The notes under the pieces were generated by a model. The model was given only the letters and a program-made list of their open reading frames with translations. It made no database searches and was not told where the DNA came from. The position numbers and the translations under genes are program-made. This document shows, in pieces, positions 52,578 to 63,078 of a stretch of DNA of 64,000 nt. Each line of letters begins with the position of its first letter. Positions within the stretch are counted from its first letter, which is position 1. Source of the stretch: Bacteroidota bacterium (GTDB taxonomy: Bacteria; Bacteroidota; JABWAT01); contig JABWAT010000005.1 in NCBI GenBank assembly GCA_013360915.1, positions 62,001 through 126,000 of the forward strand, given 5' to 3'.

Positions 52578-55500
52578 ATGGAAGCTCAGACCTCTGACAA
52601 TCGAACCGTTGTGAAGCACTTTACCCCAGGCAATCAGGATATACCACTGGTCTCTTCCTGCAATACTTGTGTCCCTTTCATCACCCCTGCACCCGTTTTA
52701 AAGGAATCCTTCCAACCATTTTCCATCTTCAGAATCCGGTTGTTCTTTTTATCCTTGCTGTTTTTCTGGGTGATTCTTTCCGGCTACACCGCTGCCGTGG
52801 CCGATGGCAACAGAGGGTATACCATCCGGGCCTACGGCCGCGGGAACACCGATATCCCTACCAATCTGACCAAGGCCATCACTCAGGACAAAGATGGGAT
52901 GATCTGGGTTGGCAGTGATAATGGCCTCATTCTGTTCAACGGCAGCGAATTCAGGACCATTACCGACGGGCTTCCCAGCTTCCTCATCAAACGGTTTTAT
53001 CATTCCCCCTCTTTTGCCTATCCGTTAATCATCACCGACCGCGGAATTGTTGAAGTCCAATCCACCGATCCGGTTTCTGTCCGTACGATCATTTCAGGGC
53101 ACAATCTGGTGACCGACTCGACCATGTTTTACGCCAAGAGTATCTATGAACAAAAGCCCGGTCACTATTTTCTTGGCGAACCCGGCTCGGTTCTGCGCAT
53201 AGTTAACGGCCGCTTTACCCGGTATGATTTCGAGGAAAAATACCGCGCAGATGATTTCTTCAGATCTTTCCAGTTTACCACGCTGAATGACTCGACCCTG
53301 CTGGTCACCTCCCAGCGTGGCTATGTGTTCCGTTTTGATGAGCCCACCAATCGATTTGTTCTCATGCCCATCACCGGCTCATTCAATATCAACCGGATCG
53401 ATGCGCTGATCACACTTCCCGATGGCCGGTTGCTGGCCGGGACCGATTCCGGTGTATATGAACTCCGACCCGACGCCTCCCTGTCAACGGTTTCTCTCCA
53501 TCTGGTCGCTGAAGTGACTGGTGTTTCTTCACTGGTACTGAAGGATGACATGCTTTTTATCGGTACCTGGCGGAATGGATGCAGTATCATGCCAATCGAC
53601 AAACCCGATGGCCTCAGGCGGCTCACCGATCTTCCGTTCCGTGTGATCACCGATATATTCGCCGGCGCAGACGGAACCGTCTGGCTTTCCTCGGATGAAG
53701 GCTTTGCCTTTATCCGTGAACCCCTGTTTTCGTCCTTTGAACTCCCGGTTCCCACTCTGTTTATTCAGCAGATACAACCCCTGCCCGATGGTTCGGTGCT
53801 TGCCACCGAGGGAAATTACGTTTTCCATGTCACCCTCGATGGGGATGAACCCCGGTTCAGACAACTGTATGCCGCCCGGTCCAGCCTGATCATGTCGATT
53901 CATGGTACACCCGACCGGTTTTACCTGGGCTTCAAAGATGGTTTCATTGAGGTGGTTGAAAAGGGGAAACGGATCAGAACGTATCAGCTGCTCAGAGGGC
54001 GCGAATCGAACCGGATTGTTCAGTCCATGGACCGGTCACCCGGCGATACACTTTTCTTTCAATCGGTCGGTTTAGCTGGTTTTGGAATGATTCTTCCCGA
54101 CGGGACACTGAGGGAAATCACTTCACCCGACCTGACCACTATCAGCTTTGCAGCCATCGCATTCGATCCGGTCCGTAAGAAGGTTTATCTGGGAGGCACC
54201 ACTTTTGAAACCCTTCTTTATGAATATGATCTGCAGACAGGGGCCTTTCATTCACTGAACCTATGGGACCACCCGATGTCGGCGGAAAACATGGGGGTCA
54301 ATACCATTACCATCAGCCGCGAAGGAACTGTGCTGCTCGGAACATCGCGGGGCATCGCAGAATACGATGGTTCCTCCCTGCGTCTACGATCCGGTTTTGA
54401 TGAAACTCTGAATGTGCGCTCCTTGTATGATGACCCGGCCGGCGGACTCTGGATCGGACATGAACACGGTCTCATCTACCAGACTTCCGGTGAAAACATC
54501 CGGTTCGATACCAACGATGGCATGGGAAATATCACCGTTTCCTTCAGATCCATTGTTAAAACACCCGACAACCGATTGTGGGTGGGAACCGCTGCTGGTA
54601 TCAGCTTTTTCAGAACTCCCGAAGCCATCCGGCTTTCAAGATCCAGAACCCCGCAGATCCTGAACCTGAAAGTCAACGAAGACCGGATCACCACGATTCC
54701 TGATAATGGGCTGACCATCAACTCAGGCTCTGGCATCGAATTGTCTGTTTCGGCATTCATGTTTCCCACCGAAACCGTCCGCTACCAGATGCTTGTGGCC
54801 GGTCGCGATTCCATCCAGCGCGACTGGAGAACCCAATCGACCTTCTTTATTCCCAACCTGACCCGGGGCACTTATCAGATTCATGTCTGGGCCCGTCAGA
54901 ACGGATTTCTTTCCAGCGAACCGCTGATTCTGACCATCCGGGTGCTTCCGGCCTGGTATCAGACCTGGTGGGCCATCAGTTTGCTGGTGGTGTTTCTTTT
55001 CTCGGCCTTCATATCGGTTTCCTACTGGCGACGCAATGTCCTTGAGAAACGACGGACCGAAACCGAACTGCGGAAAAGTGAACAACAGAACCGGGAGCTG
55101 ATCGAAGCACTCCCCGATTTCTGGCTGAGGTTGTCTGGAAAACTCGAGGTGATTGATTTTCATCATGGTACCGCCCAGTTGCCATTTTTCACCATCGGTC
55201 AGCTCGAAAGACATCAGACCATCTGGCAACTGTTTCCGCCTTCTATTTCCCGGCCTTTGACCGATTGCATAAACCGGACCCGCGAAACCGGTGATTCCGG
55301 CACCGTTATTGTTTCGGTGGATGATCAGGATGGTCAACTCGATTTTGAAGCCCGGTGTCTGGCCCTTGGCAGCCGGGAAGTCATTCTCATCTTCCGTGAT
55401 TTTTCAAAGGAAAAACAGATTGAGCGGGAGATCATTCATGCAAGAGAAACCGCTATCGAAGTCAGCCGCCTGAAAACCGAGTTTCTGGCCACCATGTCTC

Positions 55501-56897
55501 ATGAGATCAGAACTCCAATGAACGCCGTCATCGGTATGACCAGCCTGCTGCAGAAAACCGTTCTTTCTCAGGAACAGGAAGAATACATCAGAACCTTAAG
55601 AGAAAGCAGTGACTCGCTGTTACGGATCATCAATGAGATTCTGGATTTTTCAAAGATCGAGTCAGGAAAACTCGAGGTTGATATACGGCCTTTCCGCATA
55701 TCAACCGCCACCGAGGCCGTTCTGAACATGTTTTATGCCCGGGCACTCGATAAGGGACTTCACCTCCAGGTCATTTATCACCGGCAAACCCCGGCCGATG
55801 TCATCGGGGACGAATCGCGTTACCGACAGATTCTGAGCAACCTCATCGACAATGCCATCAAATTCACGCCCTCCGGCGGAATCCTTGTCAACATCAAACC
55901 GGTTGAAAAAGAGGACCGGTCATATGTCGAGATTCATATCCGCGATACCGGCATTGGAATTCCTCCGGACAGAATGGACCGTTTGTTCAATGCCTTCAGT
56001 CAGCTGGATGCCTCGGTGACCCGCAAATACGGTGGCAGCGGTCTTGGCCTGGCCATTTCGAAAAAACTGGCCGAGCTGATGGATGGAAATATCTCGGTGG
56101 ACCGCCGGCAATCTCATGGAAGCCGGTTCAGAGTACTCATACCGACCACCGCCGTGGAAGGTACCCTCTCCGAAGACATCCGCCAGATGACCATCCGACC
56201 CGTTACCATCTGCCATCCCGACCGCGTGATCAGATGGATGCTCAGGGAATTCTTCAGAGAGCTGGAAATTCCGGTACAGAGTTACCGGAAACCCGATGAG
56301 GTCCCCCAGTCTTCAATGCTCGTGATCACCCATGCAGAACTGGCCCGACAATTTACCCACCCCAAACAACAGGTTGTGGTTCTGGGTCCCTGCACCGATC
56401 AGGCGATGAATGGTAAGGCCTACTCTGGAATTGCCGGAATTGATTTTCTGAGATTTCTGTTCACCGTCATGGAAAAGGAGCAGAAACCGGTGAGCGAGCA
56501 ACCAGTTCGGCTAGCGGATAAATATCCTATGAATATTCTGGTTGCAGAGGACAATCCGGTTAATCAATTATTGATGAAACGTTTACTGGGAAAACTGGGC
56601 TATGAAATCACCATGGCTGCTGATGGTCAGGAAGCCGTGAATTCGCTGCAAAACACCCAGACCGACATCATTTTCATGGATGTTCAGATGCCTGTCATGG
56701 ACGGACTCGAAGCGACTTCCCTGATCCGGACCCAATCAGGTACCGGCAAACGACCCATTATCATTGCTCTCACAGCCAACGCCCTTGAATCGGACCGGGA
56801 GGCATGCCTGAATGCTGGAATGGATGACTACCTGTCTAAACCGGTCACCATCACCGATATAGAACGGATAATCAGAAAATGGGCCGGGTCGGTCTGA
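52578..56897 (+). CDS. Hybrid one-protein two-component sensor (propeller, Y_Y_Y, HisKA, HATPase, pseudo-receiver, receiver)
   Basis: 1439 residues. A membrane helix near 50-72 acts as signal anchor. Two-component regulator propeller repeats span about 80-690 ([35 protein letters not shown]), then a Y_Y_Y domain (about 700-790) and membrane helix 2 (about 797-820). Inside the cell come a PAS-like region (about 840-960), HisKA with His975 ([18 protein letters not shown]), HATPase ([33 protein letters not shown]), a degenerate receiver-like domain (about 1213-1305) without an acidic pocket, and a complete receiver with Asp1368 ([13 protein letters not shown]). There is no DNA-binding domain, so an unlinked output is needed. 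It resembles BarA-type hybrids with a Bacteroidota-style periplasmic sensor. Confidence 0.93.
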
Positions 56898-58156
56898 AAT
56901 CTCACTGGTTCAGAGTGAGTCTCTGGCTGCTGAGCGGAGTCCTTCTTTTATCCTGCGAAAGAGATGAACTGGACCGTTCCGATCTGGACCTTCAGATTCA
57001 GATTGTTTCACCCGATCCTTCTCTGGTAGTCACCGCCGATACGCTCAGAGTCCGCCTCAAACTGATTCCGGATGACAGTCTCCGGTTTGATGAATTGACC
57101 ATTGATGGAATCCGTCCGGTATTTAAAGATGGGGGATATGAATGCCTCCTCAATCTTTCCGGCAGAGGCAAACGGATTCCGGTACCCATTAAAATCCGGG
57201 TGGATGGGCAGGTTCGCTACACCGACTCCCTTCGATTGGTGAAATTCACTTGGCAATCGCCCGTTCTGGCGGGCCACCTGACTCAACCCAGGGCCAACCA
57301 CGCCACCATTCTTCATTCCAATGACCGGCTGCTTACCAGTGGGGGCGTATCCGGCTATTATGACCCTGCCCTGAAAAGCACCGAGTATTTTTCACTTCTC
57401 AGCGGCTCAAGTGATTCCTTGCCGTCCTGGAACCTTCTTCATGCCCGCGCGGGCCATGCCATGGTGTCGGTGGCCCGGGAATCCTTCATGGTTTTGGGAG
57501 GGATGACTTCCTTCCGGCCCGGTCAGGCGGGAAACAACCTTCTTCCCACCGAATTGGTTTATCAATTCCTTCATACGGTACTCGATACCAGCGATCTGAC
57601 TGCAGATTTTGCCTGGTCTCAATCGGGCTCTGTGTTACTGACTCATGGTGGCTGGAATTCCGATTATACCGGACGGTTTGTAATTGACTCCCATTCCATT
57701 ACACGGACTTCCTGGAAAAGAACCGGCTACCAACTGGCACTTCATTCCCTGACACCCATGACAGCCACCCCCGGTTTATGGTTTCTGGCCTCAGGTGATT
57801 TTTCGTGGAATTACCCGCTGATGTATTCCTTTTACCTCGGCGAGGATAACGGAGCACTGTACCCGTCCGACCTGTTTTTCCGGATTATCCGCCTGGACCA
57901 TACCGCCACCGCGCTGCCGGGAAACTTTATTCTGATTGCAGGCGGACTTCAGAACCCCGGACCAGAGGAGCGCCTGGTGGAGGAAATTGAATTGAGTGAC
58001 CTGAACCGGGGTCGTAGCTACCGGCTACCCGGCAAATTATTGACTGCACGGGCAGCCCATACCGCCGTGGCAGCAGGATCGTTTGTATATTTTCTGGGAG
58101 GACTGGATGCCAACCGGCAAGTCCTTTCATCCATCGAAAAAATGGCACTGGAGTAA
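56879..58156 (+). CDS. Kelch-like lipoprotein
   Basis: 425 residues. A lipoprotein signal ends at LLSGVLLLSCERDELD. An Ig-like N-domain (about 35-120) is followed by five or six kelch-type blades: LTQPRANHATILHSNDRLLT, LHARAGHAMVSVARESFMVL-GG, LLTARAAHTAVAAGSFVYFL-GG. Propellers of this sort bind ligands or proteins at the cell surface; the target is unknown. The gene starts 19 bp inside the hybrid sensor gene in another frame, so it is translationally coupled and may be a periplasmic partner of that sensor (inference). It is followed after 2 bp by a small coiled protein gene. Confidence 0.82.
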   Translation: MGRVGLKSHWFRVSLWLLSGVLLLSCERDELDRSDLDLQIQIVSPDPSLVVTADTLRVRLKLIPDDSLRFDELTIDGIRPVFKDGGYECLLNLSGRGKRIPVPIKIRVDGQVRYTDSLRLVKFTWQSPVLAGHLTQPRANHATILHSNDRLLTSGGVSGYYDPALKSTEYFSLLSGSSDSLPSWNLLHARAGHAMVSVARESFMVLGGMTSFRPGQAGNNLLPTELVYQFLHTVLDTSDLTADFAWSQSGSVLLTHGGWNSDYTGRFVIDSHSITRTSWKRTGYQLALHSLTPMTATPGLWFLASGDFSWNYPLMYSFYLGEDNGALYPSDLFFRIIRLDHTATALPGNFILIAGGLQNPGPEERLVEEIELSDLNRGRSYRLPGKLLTARAAHTAVAAGSFVYFLGGLDANRQVLSSIEKMALE

Positions 58157-59974: not shown

Positions 59975-60382
59975 TTAACTTGTTAAGCTAAGATGGTCAT
60001 CGACCAATTTCCGGAGGTCCGGGGAGGAAATGGGTTTGGCAAGCATCCCCAGTGCACCATCACTGATGGCTTTATCCATTCGGCGGCCAATATCACCATC
60101 ACTGGCAAAACCGGTAATGAAGAAGGTTTTGACGGGTTGATTGTTATTCAGCTTTTTCATTTCATAAAAAGCTTCAATGCCATCCATCACCGGCATTTTC
60201 ACATCCATCAGAACGAAATCAGGTTTGACCAGGCGGGCATTTTCCACCGCTCTGGATCCATCTTCCGACTTGATTATCTGCAGGGCACCCGACCGGATGG
60301 AATCCCGGAAATAAATTTTGAGAATGGTCTCAAAAATATCCCGGATTCCTTCTTCATCATCGACGATAAAGATGGTCTTCAT
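59975..60382 (-). CDS. Single-domain response regulator
   Basis: 135 residues: one receiver with nothing attached. The acidic pocket is IVDDEEGIRD, the phosphoacceptor lies in FVLMDVKMPVMDGIEA, the switch Thr is in TFFITGFASD and the Lys in GMLAKPISSPD. An insertion (DSIRSGALQIIKSEDGS) lengthens the loop after helix 1. The ATG overlaps the stop of the upstream propeller sensor (ATGA, 60379-60382), so the pair is made together. With no output domain it should act by protein-protein contact or as a phosphorelay step. Confidence 0.93.
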   Translation of the reverse strand: MKTIFIVDDEEGIRDIFETILKIYFRDSIRSGALQIIKSEDGSRAVENARLVKPDFVLMDVKMPVMDGIEAFYEMKKLNNNQPVKTFFITGFASDGDIGRRMDKAISDGALGMLAKPISSPDLRKLVDDHLSLTS

Positions 60383-63078
60383 GGTTCATTCTCTCCGGTC
60401 AAATCGATCATGGTCTGATCTTTGGTGTACTTTTTCGTCTTAAATTTAGCATCATTCAATAGTTGTTCCAACTTCGCCATTAATTTTTTCATCCGGCCAA
60501 TCCCTTCTCCGGCCCGGGCAAGCGGAACTCCGACTTCCCCCGGTCCCTCATCCTTTACCATATCGATGATTTCCAGATTGCCGCTCACGATCTGGAGTGG
60601 CTGCCTGAGCTCATGCAGAACTCCGATGGTAATCTGCCTCAGCAATTCTACCCGCTCCCGCTCCTGTTGTTCCCTCCGGAATTCACGGTAGCGACCCAGG
60701 GCGTACAAACCAGCCCCCAGACCTGCAAGAACCAACAGACTGAACCACCAGGTGCGGTAAAAAGGAGGAACCACCCGGATGGCAATGGAAAGGGTGTCCG
60801 TCGACAAGCGCCCATCCGAATTGGTTCCCTGAACCAGCAATTGGTAGTCACCGGGGTCCAGATTGGTATATGTGATATAACGGCGGCTGGTCAGGGCGGA
60901 CCACTCCTCATCGAACCCCTCCAGCATAAACCGGTAACGGTTCTTATCTGGATTGGTGTAGTCCAGCGAGGCGAATTCCAGAGAAAAAAGATTCTGACGG
61001 AATTTCAATCGGATGGAGGTCAGAAAGGGCGCAGATAGCGCACCGGCCACCGGTTGATTCATAATAGAGAAATCGGTGAGAACAAGCGGGGGAGCAAACT
61101 GATTGTCAGTCACTTCACCGGGAATGAACCAGTTAAATCCTTCGATCCCGCCCACATAAAACCGTTCCGAGGCATCACGGAACCAGGATCCGCCGTTGAA
61201 TTCCTTACTCTGAAGCCCGTCTGACTCATCAAAACTTCTCATGGACCCTGTTTCCGGATGGTAACGTACCAACCCGGAATTGGTTGGCATCCAGAGAAAT
61301 CCGGCCCGGTCGGGCAGAATGCCATAAATATACCCGTTTGGCAACCCATCCTTTTCGGTGATCCGGGTAAACGACCGGGTCTCCGGATGAAACCGGTTCA
61401 ATCCGGCCGTGGTCCCCACCCACAGCGTGTTGGTAACATCCCTGCTGAGGCTTCTTATGTAGGAATCACTTAAACTGGTGGTATCATCGGGTTCCCGGGT
61501 ATAAAGATGGGTCACCCCGCTCGATACCTGATAATGATAAAGCCCGCGGAGGGTCCCCACCCAGACCCATTGGTTGGTGTCTGGCAGAATGGCACGGATA
61601 CTGGCCGTCTGCAGCCCTGCAGGAAGGTTTTCCGGACGAACAAACCGATCGGATCCCATCCGACGAATCCACAATCCGTTTCCAATGGTTCCTGCCCAGA
61701 TGTCGCCCGAAGCTGTTCTGTTCAGAACACGGATGTCATCAGCTGGACCTGTCTGGGACCCCGATAAACGCAGCACCACTGTATCCACCTGACCGCTGGT
61801 TGCGAAACGGATCAGCCCCGATGAACTTCCCGCCCAGACACCCGATGAATCGGCCAGGAGTGACAGGATAAACCCATTGGGTAAACGGGGTTCACTGATC
61901 CTGCTGATGATTTTTTTCAGCTGATGCCGGCCGTCATATACCGAAATACCTCCGCCATAAGTTCCTACCCATAAATCGTCGGGTGATACACGGGCAAAGG
62001 ACATGATGCTGCTGACGGGACCCTCCTTCCCGCCCAGATTGAACTTCACAGGCTTCAGATCCGCTTTAAAAAGTCCACCGGTTTCGGTTCCTACCCATAA
62101 ATTCCCTGACCGGTCCTCTGAAAGTGACAGAATAATCATCTGATCAGTCACCGATCCGCGCCCGGTAAGCAAACGGATGGGAATCAGCTCGTTCTGTTCC
62201 GGAAGATACCGCCAGAGTCCATTTCCGTACGTTCCCACCCAGACCGAACCACGGGTGTCGGTCAGCATGGCCCAGACAGACAGATCCTTTCCGCCAGCAG
62301 GCATTCCTCTGAACCGGATTCGTTCAAATAGTCCTGTTTCGGGGTTGAATCGCTGCAATCCAGCCTGATAAGTACCAACCAGAAGCTGGTCACCGGGCAA
62401 TGGTAACAGGGACTGAATCCGGTCAGAGGCCAGTGAATCAGGATGTCCCGACTGACGGAATTGCCGAAGCGGAACTCCATTCGCGGAAACATGGATCAGA
62501 CCACTTCCGAACGTACCAACCCAATAACTGCCGTCACTGGTGTGAATCACCTCCCTCACCCGCCGGTAAACCACGCCATTTAACGAGTCCGGCCATTTAG
62601 TCACCTCACCCCGGCCAGGATGGATGACGGCCAGTCCGGCATCATCAAATCCGACCAGAACCTGGTCACCGGTTTCCTTCAGAACCCTCACCTGCCGGCC
62701 CGGAAGCACCCGCAATCCTGAACCCTCAGCCGACCATAAACGGGTCCGGCCGGCCTTCCAGTCCACTTCATCGAGCCCCTGTCCGTGATACCCAACCCAC
62801 AGACGCCCGCCGTGGTCTTCCAGCAAGGCCTGAATCTGATTATCTGCCAGGTCCACAGCTCCTGAATGGTGCTTTCGGATGGGCGTAAAACCATAGCCGT
62901 TGAACAGATTTAAACCATCCCGGGTGGCCACCCACATCAATCCGTTTGCGGATTGCCTGATCGCCGTGACAGAGTTCTGACTGAGGCCATCAGACACGGA
63001 ATAATTGTGAAACACCAATTCCTGTGCAGAAAGCAACAGAGGAAAGAAAAGCAGAAAAAAATGGGGGACTGATTTCAT
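60379..63078 (-). CDS. Propeller/Y_Y_Y sensor with a His-box dimerisation helix but no ATPase domain
   Basis: 899 residues. A signal peptide (HFFLLFFPLLLSAQE) is followed by propeller repeats over about 25-660 (ANGLMWVATRDGLNLFNGY, TNTLWVGTTAGLNRFHPET), a Y_Y_Y domain (about 670-770) and one membrane helix (about 775-795). The cytoplasmic tail has a HisKA-like helix with ITIGVLHELRQPLQIVSGNL (His822) but ends only 77 residues later (KYTKDQTMIDLTGENEP) at a genuine stop: no N, G1, F or G2 box follows. Phosphorylation would have to come from another kinase, or the protein signals by dimer geometry to the coupled receiver. No frameshift remnant of an ATPase domain is seen downstream, because the next gene is the receiver itself. 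Confidence 0.9.
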   Translation of the reverse strand: MKSVPHFFLLFFPLLLSAQELVFHNYSVSDGLSQNSVTAIRQSANGLMWVATRDGLNLFNGYGFTPIRKHHSGAVDLADNQIQALLEDHGGRLWVGYHGQGLDEVDWKAGRTRLWSAEGSGLRVLPGRQVRVLKETGDQVLVGFDDAGLAVIHPGRGEVTKWPDSLNGVVYRRVREVIHTSDGSYWVGTFGSGLIHVSANGVPLRQFRQSGHPDSLASDRIQSLLPLPGDQLLVGTYQAGLQRFNPETGLFERIRFRGMPAGGKDLSVWAMLTDTRGSVWVGTYGNGLWRYLPEQNELIPIRLLTGRGSVTDQMIILSLSEDRSGNLWVGTETGGLFKADLKPVKFNLGGKEGPVSSIMSFARVSPDDLWVGTYGGGISVYDGRHQLKKIISRISEPRLPNGFILSLLADSSGVWAGSSSGLIRFATSGQVDTVVLRLSGSQTGPADDIRVLNRTASGDIWAGTIGNGLWIRRMGSDRFVRPENLPAGLQTASIRAILPDTNQWVWVGTLRGLYHYQVSSGVTHLYTREPDDTTSLSDSYIRSLSRDVTNTLWVGTTAGLNRFHPETRSFTRITEKDGLPNGYIYGILPDRAGFLWMPTNSGLVRYHPETGSMRSFDESDGLQSKEFNGGSWFRDASERFYVGGIEGFNWFIPGEVTDNQFAPPLVLTDFSIMNQPVAGALSAPFLTSIRLKFRQNLFSLEFASLDYTNPDKNRYRFMLEGFDEEWSALTSRRYITYTNLDPGDYQLLVQGTNSDGRLSTDTLSIAIRVVPPFYRTWWFSLLVLAGLGAGLYALGRYREFRREQQERERVELLRQITIGVLHELRQPLQIVSGNLEIIDMVKDEGPGEVGVPLARAGEGIGRMKKLMAKLEQLLNDAKFKTKKYTKDQTMIDLTGENEP

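Follow-up and report, generated by a model that had tools for sequence, protein, structure and literature searches.

The C-terminal half of the sensor protein P0001, which is encoded beside a lone receiver (P0002) in the genome of a Bacteroidota bacterium, is a module that consists of a DHp helical hairpin and a conserved tail and has no ATPase domain. P0001 is not a broken gene. Judging from sequence relatives in this and other phyla, the module is old and widespread, and the ATPase-less state belongs to the module itself.

An Intact Gene for a Sensor without an ATPase Domain

The following features were delineated in the window, that is, the whole stretch of 64,000 nucleotides that was analysed.

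60379–63078, (−) strand: P0001, ATPase-less sensor of 899 aa, with orthologues in all three other genomes of the order
61009–63006, (−) strand: extracytoplasmic two-component regulator propeller of P0001, residues about 25–690 (Reg_prop, 4.8e-38)
60772–60963, (−) strand: Y_Y_Y domain of P0001, residues 706–769 (Pfam, 9.4e-20)
60691–60753, (−) strand: membrane-spanning helix of P0001, residues about 776–796 (assigned from sequence)
60448–60672, (−) strand: DHp helical hairpin of P0001, residues 803–877 (partial HisKA match)
60613–60615, (−) strand: His822, first residue of the H-box HELRQPL (Glu at +1, Gln at +4)
60382–60447, (−) strand: conserved C-terminal tail of P0001, KFKTKKYTKDQTMIDLTGENEP, residues 878–899
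60379–60382, (−) strand: ATGA overlap of the P0001 stop with the P0002 start, conserved in four of four genomes
59975–60382, (−) strand: P0002, lone receiver of 135 aa (Response_reg, 3.4e-17)
52578–56897, (+) strand: P0003, neighbouring complete hybrid propeller kinase, a candidate trans kinase outside the unit

P0001 has a signal-like N-terminus, and in an AlphaFold2 model its membrane helix runs unbroken into DHp helix 1. An earlier note, made from the letters of this DNA alone, had claimed that His822 and the dimerisation helix are present and that the protein ends 77 residues past His822 at a stop overlapping the receiver start as ATGA; both claims hold, with an H-box that reads HELRQPL and two DHp helices predicted at a pLDDT mostly above 80. 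The HisKA match in Pfam (residues 819–870) scores 18.1 bits, under the cut-off of 26.9; we regard it as genuine though weak. P0001 therefore has the DHp helix with a phospho-acceptor His of an orthodox HisKA kinase, but no HATPase_c CA domain (N, G1, F, and G2 boxes) on the same chain, and with its N-terminal sensor, C-terminal DHp with His, and absent HATPase it fits the "HisKA, no HATPase" class.

Pfam detected no HATPase_c domain in P0001, and a six-frame search reading through stops detected none from C5:118150 to the end of the window. Genome-wide, such a search located 66 HATPase_c places, none of which is in or beside P0001, the nearest being inside P0003. A frameshift that hides an ATPase domain is therefore excluded. 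Our comparison set comprised the host genome and three other genomes of its order, and all three of the others encode the same truncated protein with the same end point, the ATGA overlap, and the receiver, and the neighbours glgC (before) and pyk (after) are common to all four; because of this shared arrangement we see neither a frameshift nor decay at the locus. Identity between genera is 39–40% in the propeller, 63–71% in DHp helix 1, and 81% in the last 22 residues, and in the closest pair the DHp plus tail has a dN of 0.033 and a dS of 0.85 (dN/dS about 0.04), indicative of purifying selection. With the three matching genomes, these values mean that the truncated form is no product of chance. 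Although the HisKA score lies under the Pfam cut-off, it is hardly credible that P0001 is a degenerate or mis-assembled kinase, either a pseudogene or the product of a sequencing frameshift, given one end point in four conserved loci, purifying selection, and no ATPase domain in any frame; we rejected this reading. Two findings that the earlier note had set against its own account were looked for, and neither appeared: the six-frame search revealed no ATPase domain behind a frameshift, and none of the three other genomes encodes a complete kinase in this place. Its view that no ATPase domain lies nearby and that His822 is phosphorylated either in trans or not at all is thus borne out, the domain being truly absent.

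A Spo0F-Like Receiver Partner

P0002 is a receiver only, with an acidic pair, Asp60, Thr90, and Lys116, together with Lys62 at D+2 and Met113 in place of the switch aromatic (Tyr in CheY). Its orthologues are 74–78% identical, and the next best matches fall below 40%. Among solved proteins, Spo0F is the nearest to match P0002 over its full length, and it likewise has Lys at D+2 and no switch aromatic. Spo0F-type receivers are phosphate shuttles with slow self-dephosphorylation. The features of P0002 therefore fit a phosphate shuttle, and that it may be a slow-dephosphorylating one is, by this analogy, a lead.

A Family of Tail-Bearing DHp Modules

The tail of P0001, which the earlier note does not mention, comprises 22 residues with the pattern Y-x5-M-I-D-L and is disordered in the AlphaFold2 monomer model (pLDDT less than 50). 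The host genome encodes a second copy of the module in a 518-aa 7TMR-DISM receptor (L001:6307–7863), also without a CA domain, whose last 97 residues, after the His, match P0001 at 36%. Both proteins are present in four of four genomes of the order; inspection of the neighbourhood of the 7TM paralogue revealed no receiver gene beside it. Searches of the phylum and of GTDB genomes yielded about 60 distinct relatives of the module, in this and other phyla, in which it is fused to receivers, GAF/PAS, or membrane sensors and the CA domain is absent. Most are receiver-DHp proteins of 220–250 aa, and proteins with GAF/PAS sensors occur in MAGs labelled Myxococcales, Deferribacteres, Thermodesulfobacteriota, and Deltaproteobacteria. 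In Pfam and NCBIfam the module has only weak HisKA-type matches and no specific name.

P0001 shares the defining feature of this family, a DHp followed by a Y...[MI][IVL]D[LI] tail at the end of the chain. A leave-family-out HMM, built from 56 members with the own family excluded, aligns residues 806–894 of P0001, as well as the 7TM receptor, through its last (tail) columns. Only 4 of the 172 HMM matches in proteins that continue past the module, mostly complete kinases, reach the tail columns, and when the module profile is aligned to 113 complete kinases, the match breaks off at column 75 of 91 and does not extend into the tail. The tail is therefore particular to the ATPase-less family. An origin of the tail as a leftover first strand of the CA domain was suspected because complete kinases often have V-D-L/I at this place, but the same alignment to the 113 kinases gave it no support.

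Across 63 distinct modules the H-box Pro and Leu are kept in 62 and 61, respectively, the tail Tyr in 61, the Met/Ile in all 63, and the tail Asp in 60 of 62, whereas the His is kept in 52 (83%) and the following Glu in 50. At 97% the tail Tyr and Asp surpass the His (83%) in conservation. The tail percentages are to be read as upper bounds because the collection was gathered partly by tail similarity, but the comparison keeps its value, the query having also contained the His-bearing helix. The His is absent and the tail kept in 11 of the 63 modules; His phosphorylation is thus not indispensable for the module to function, and ten of the 11 retain the receiver Asp. This observation, the tail Tyr and Asp ranking with the H-box PL as the most conserved positions, and the disorder of the tail on its own in the monomer model would all suit a phosphorylation-independent adaptor, in which hairpin and tail bind a partner under sensor control and the His is a relic. 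However, the His-less modules are alike in the tail and look like one receiver-fused branch, and the His, the Glu at +1, and the Gln at +4 are invariant in the sensor-fused modules, as they are in the own family (eight of eight, both branches). For P0001 we consider such an adaptor quite unlikely.

About 50 relatives carry receiver and ATPase-less DHp on a single chain, with the receiver Asp kept in 50 of 52; because of these fusions and of the overlapping genes in the four genomes studied here, we conclude that the two go together. Of 46 receiver-DHp fusions, 25 begin no more than 200 bases downstream of a same-strand gene for a complete kinase, and the two genes often overlap by 4 bases; a kinase so placed is a natural source of phosphate.

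Several loci of relatives have recurrent arrangements. Four His-less receiver-DHp-tail genes (L056:6555–7229, L058:5969–6658, L151:4004–4687, and L161:3567–4472) lie just upstream of short genes that we take to be TPM-like, and in some loci they are preceded by a complete kinase or by what is presumably a LemA-like gene; the arrangement amounts to a conserved operon. At L160, L162, L164, L166–L170, L172–L176, L178, L180, and L181 a large hybrid kinase is followed by a receiver-DHp-tail protein and, in most of these loci, by a convergently encoded REC/CA protein and a roughly 450-aa receiver protein, which looks like one conserved phosphorelay locus across a bacterial family. At L051:7183–7917, L147, and L148 the receiver-DHp-tail gene sits between an FtsA/FtsZ-like pair, which it follows directly, and a sigma-54-type response regulator, these names being given by sequence impression.

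Origin of P0001

The sensor region of P0001 matches complete propeller kinases on other contigs at 334 and 329 bits, and P0003 at 52.8 bits. Its DHp is closest to that of the ATPase-less 7TM paralogue (75.9 bits, or 57.8 without the tail), with 26 bits to the closest propeller kinase paralogue. Because the propeller resembles complete kinases and the DHp resembles the ATPase-less paralogue, P0001 looks like a domain swap, and on these scores the simplest history looks like the joining of a propeller sensor to an already ATPase-less module. The suggestion in the earlier note that the two propeller sensors of the window share an origin, with later domain loss, had to be abandoned, P0003 being distant (52.8 against 334 bits) and the DHp grouping with the 7TM receptor.

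Among the closest sensor paralogues of P0001 are proteins encoded in tandem at L187 (G000:C2:440500–450500), where propeller proteins of 1120 and 1217 aa adjoin a 416-aa kinase. The window also encodes, between P0003 and pyk (56879–58156), a 425-aa lipoprotein-like protein with Kelch-like repeats; in genome G003 a similar protein adjoins the hybrid kinase.

Proposed Mechanism and Alternatives

We tentatively favour the reading that the P0001 sensor controls whether His822 and P0002 exchange phosphoryl groups in trans, and that its tail docks a partner. The output of P0001 would be a stand-alone DHp module unable to use ATP itself. Signals sensed by the propeller would alter the DHp helices and thereby control phosphoryl exchange between His822 and Asp60 of P0002. 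The phosphoryl group would be supplied by a different histidine kinase in the cell, most likely by way of P0002~P, and the pair would then work like MrrA-PhyK, SdrG-PhyT, or Spo0F-Spo0B. The Y...MIDL tail would be a short docking motif that holds the partner, most simply a receiver. Observation covers the anatomy, conservation, family, operon, and receiver features; which way phosphate flows, which kinase supplies it, and what the tail does are inferred.

Receiver-fed exchange is placed first because of the conserved partnership with a receiver and the Spo0F-like features of P0002, and experiments have established that a sensor protein can serve as a phosphotransferase while having no autokinase activity (PMC5964349; PMC5898713). 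Docking is the natural hypothesis for the tail because it is disordered yet best conserved and because there is a precedent in WalK of Streptococcus, whose disordered C-terminal tail binds its regulator, a receiver (PMC9087282); by this analogy the tail of P0001 probably docks a partner. Two observations speak against a relay: a downstream output regulator did not come to light, and the 7TM paralogue, the genome's other ATPase-less sensor, has no adjoining receiver.

In HisKA domains the Glu beside the His is required for kinase activity only, and a T/N at His+4 for phosphatase activity only (PMC3510030). The Glu and Gln of the own-family modules therefore favour phosphoryl chemistry on the His and speak somewhat against a pure phosphatase. 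A sensor-gated phosphatase, whose DHp would only strip phosphate from P0002~P made by other kinases, finds precedents in EnvZ, whose DHp without the CA domain retains phosphatase activity (Zhu 2000, as cited in PMC3510030 and PMC7005713), in HK853, which retains it when the CA domain is removed (PMC7005713), and in a proposal for archaeal HisKA-only proteins (PMC5847659). In the own-family modules, however, position +4 is Gln rather than T/N in eight of eight cases, although Gln is a possible substitute, and the kinase-only Glu is retained; we rate this activity as improbable for P0001.

The strict Glu also argues for autokinase chemistry in trans over a relay, Glu being kinase-only and PhyT having an HRxxN box. 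In such a split kinase P0001 would form heterodimers with a second kinase, either P0003 or a propeller paralogue, whose CA domain would phosphorylate His822 directly; P0001 would then pass the phosphate to P0002. Glu823 is invariant and of the kinase-only type (PMC3510030), the DHp and CA of EnvZ function as separate chains (PMC3591291), the genome has propeller kinases with related sensor regions, and P0003 is close by in four of four genomes. But the proximity of P0003 reflects general synteny, and because other neighbours are equally conserved it is not specific evidence for the role as trans kinase that the earlier note had suggested; the DHp of P0001 is distant from those of P0003 and the propeller paralogues, so that heterodimers are not obvious; and a CA-only partner gene was rejected, the three short stand-alone HATPase genes checked in the genome all being HATPase_c_2 (anti-sigma type), unlike kinase CA domains. 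On balance a split kinase seems unlikely. Similarly doubtful is the broader proposal that the tail-bearing DHp is a separate class of sensor output, in which the tail would dock a receiver or other partner, His phosphorylation would be optional, kinase function would have been lost for good, and the module would have spread by shuffling onto propeller, 7TM, GAF/PAS, and receiver inputs.

Relation to Known Systems

HisKA proteins without an ATPase domain made up 1556 of 42417 (3.7%) in one count (Amin et al. 2013, PMC3591291), and in Galperin et al. 2018 (PMC5847659) "HisKA, no HATPase" is a listed group in archaea whose REC-HisKA forms are called never studied experimentally. Like P0001, such proteins have a sensor and a C-terminal DHp with His and no recognisable HATPase, and REC-HisKA forms occur among them; however, the class is set by domain absence and consists mostly of archaeal or database counts, and the available text of both reports describes no shared tail, receiver partner, or module family. 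These two class-level reports were the only ones found in the open literature searched, which yielded no account of the tail, of its conservation beyond that of the His, or of such sensor-receiver pairs. "HisKA without HATPase" is a known but uncharacterised class, and the tail-bearing family is defined here.

A functional likeness would be to PhyK/LovK-MrrA of Caulobacter and PhyT-SdrG of Sphingomonas, in which a membrane sensor serves as histidine phosphotransferase together with a single-domain receiver that gets its phosphate from other kinases. These sensors keep an intact or degenerate CA domain and serve the alphaproteobacterial general stress response at phyR loci, whereas P0001 has no CA domain, lies at a different locus, and has HELRQPL where PhyT has an HRxxN box. 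In Spo0B-Spo0F of Bacillus a DHp acts as phosphotransferase, and P0002 is closest to Spo0F over its full length, but Spo0B is soluble, has a CA-like remnant, and has no detectable sequence similarity to P0001. Bacteroidetes-type propeller hybrid sensors (Reg_prop-Y_Y_Y-kinase-regulator) share the extracytoplasmic sensor and transmembrane layout of P0001, which differs from them in having no CA, receiver, or DNA-binding domains and a DHp from another family. CheA3-CheA4 of Rhodobacter, an established split kinase with phospho-acceptor and ATPase on separate chains (PMC3591291), uses a CheA-type P1 rather than a DHp, and for P0001 no CA-only partner was found among the three short HATPase genes checked.

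ATPase-less HisKA proteins are usually annotated as kinases, and hardly any have been studied. Through the P0001 locus, one such protein now has a family signature, an evolutionary history, and a conserved partner encoded by a single gene, and the role of a kinase half without its ATPase can be put to a direct test using two small proteins and a set of point mutants.
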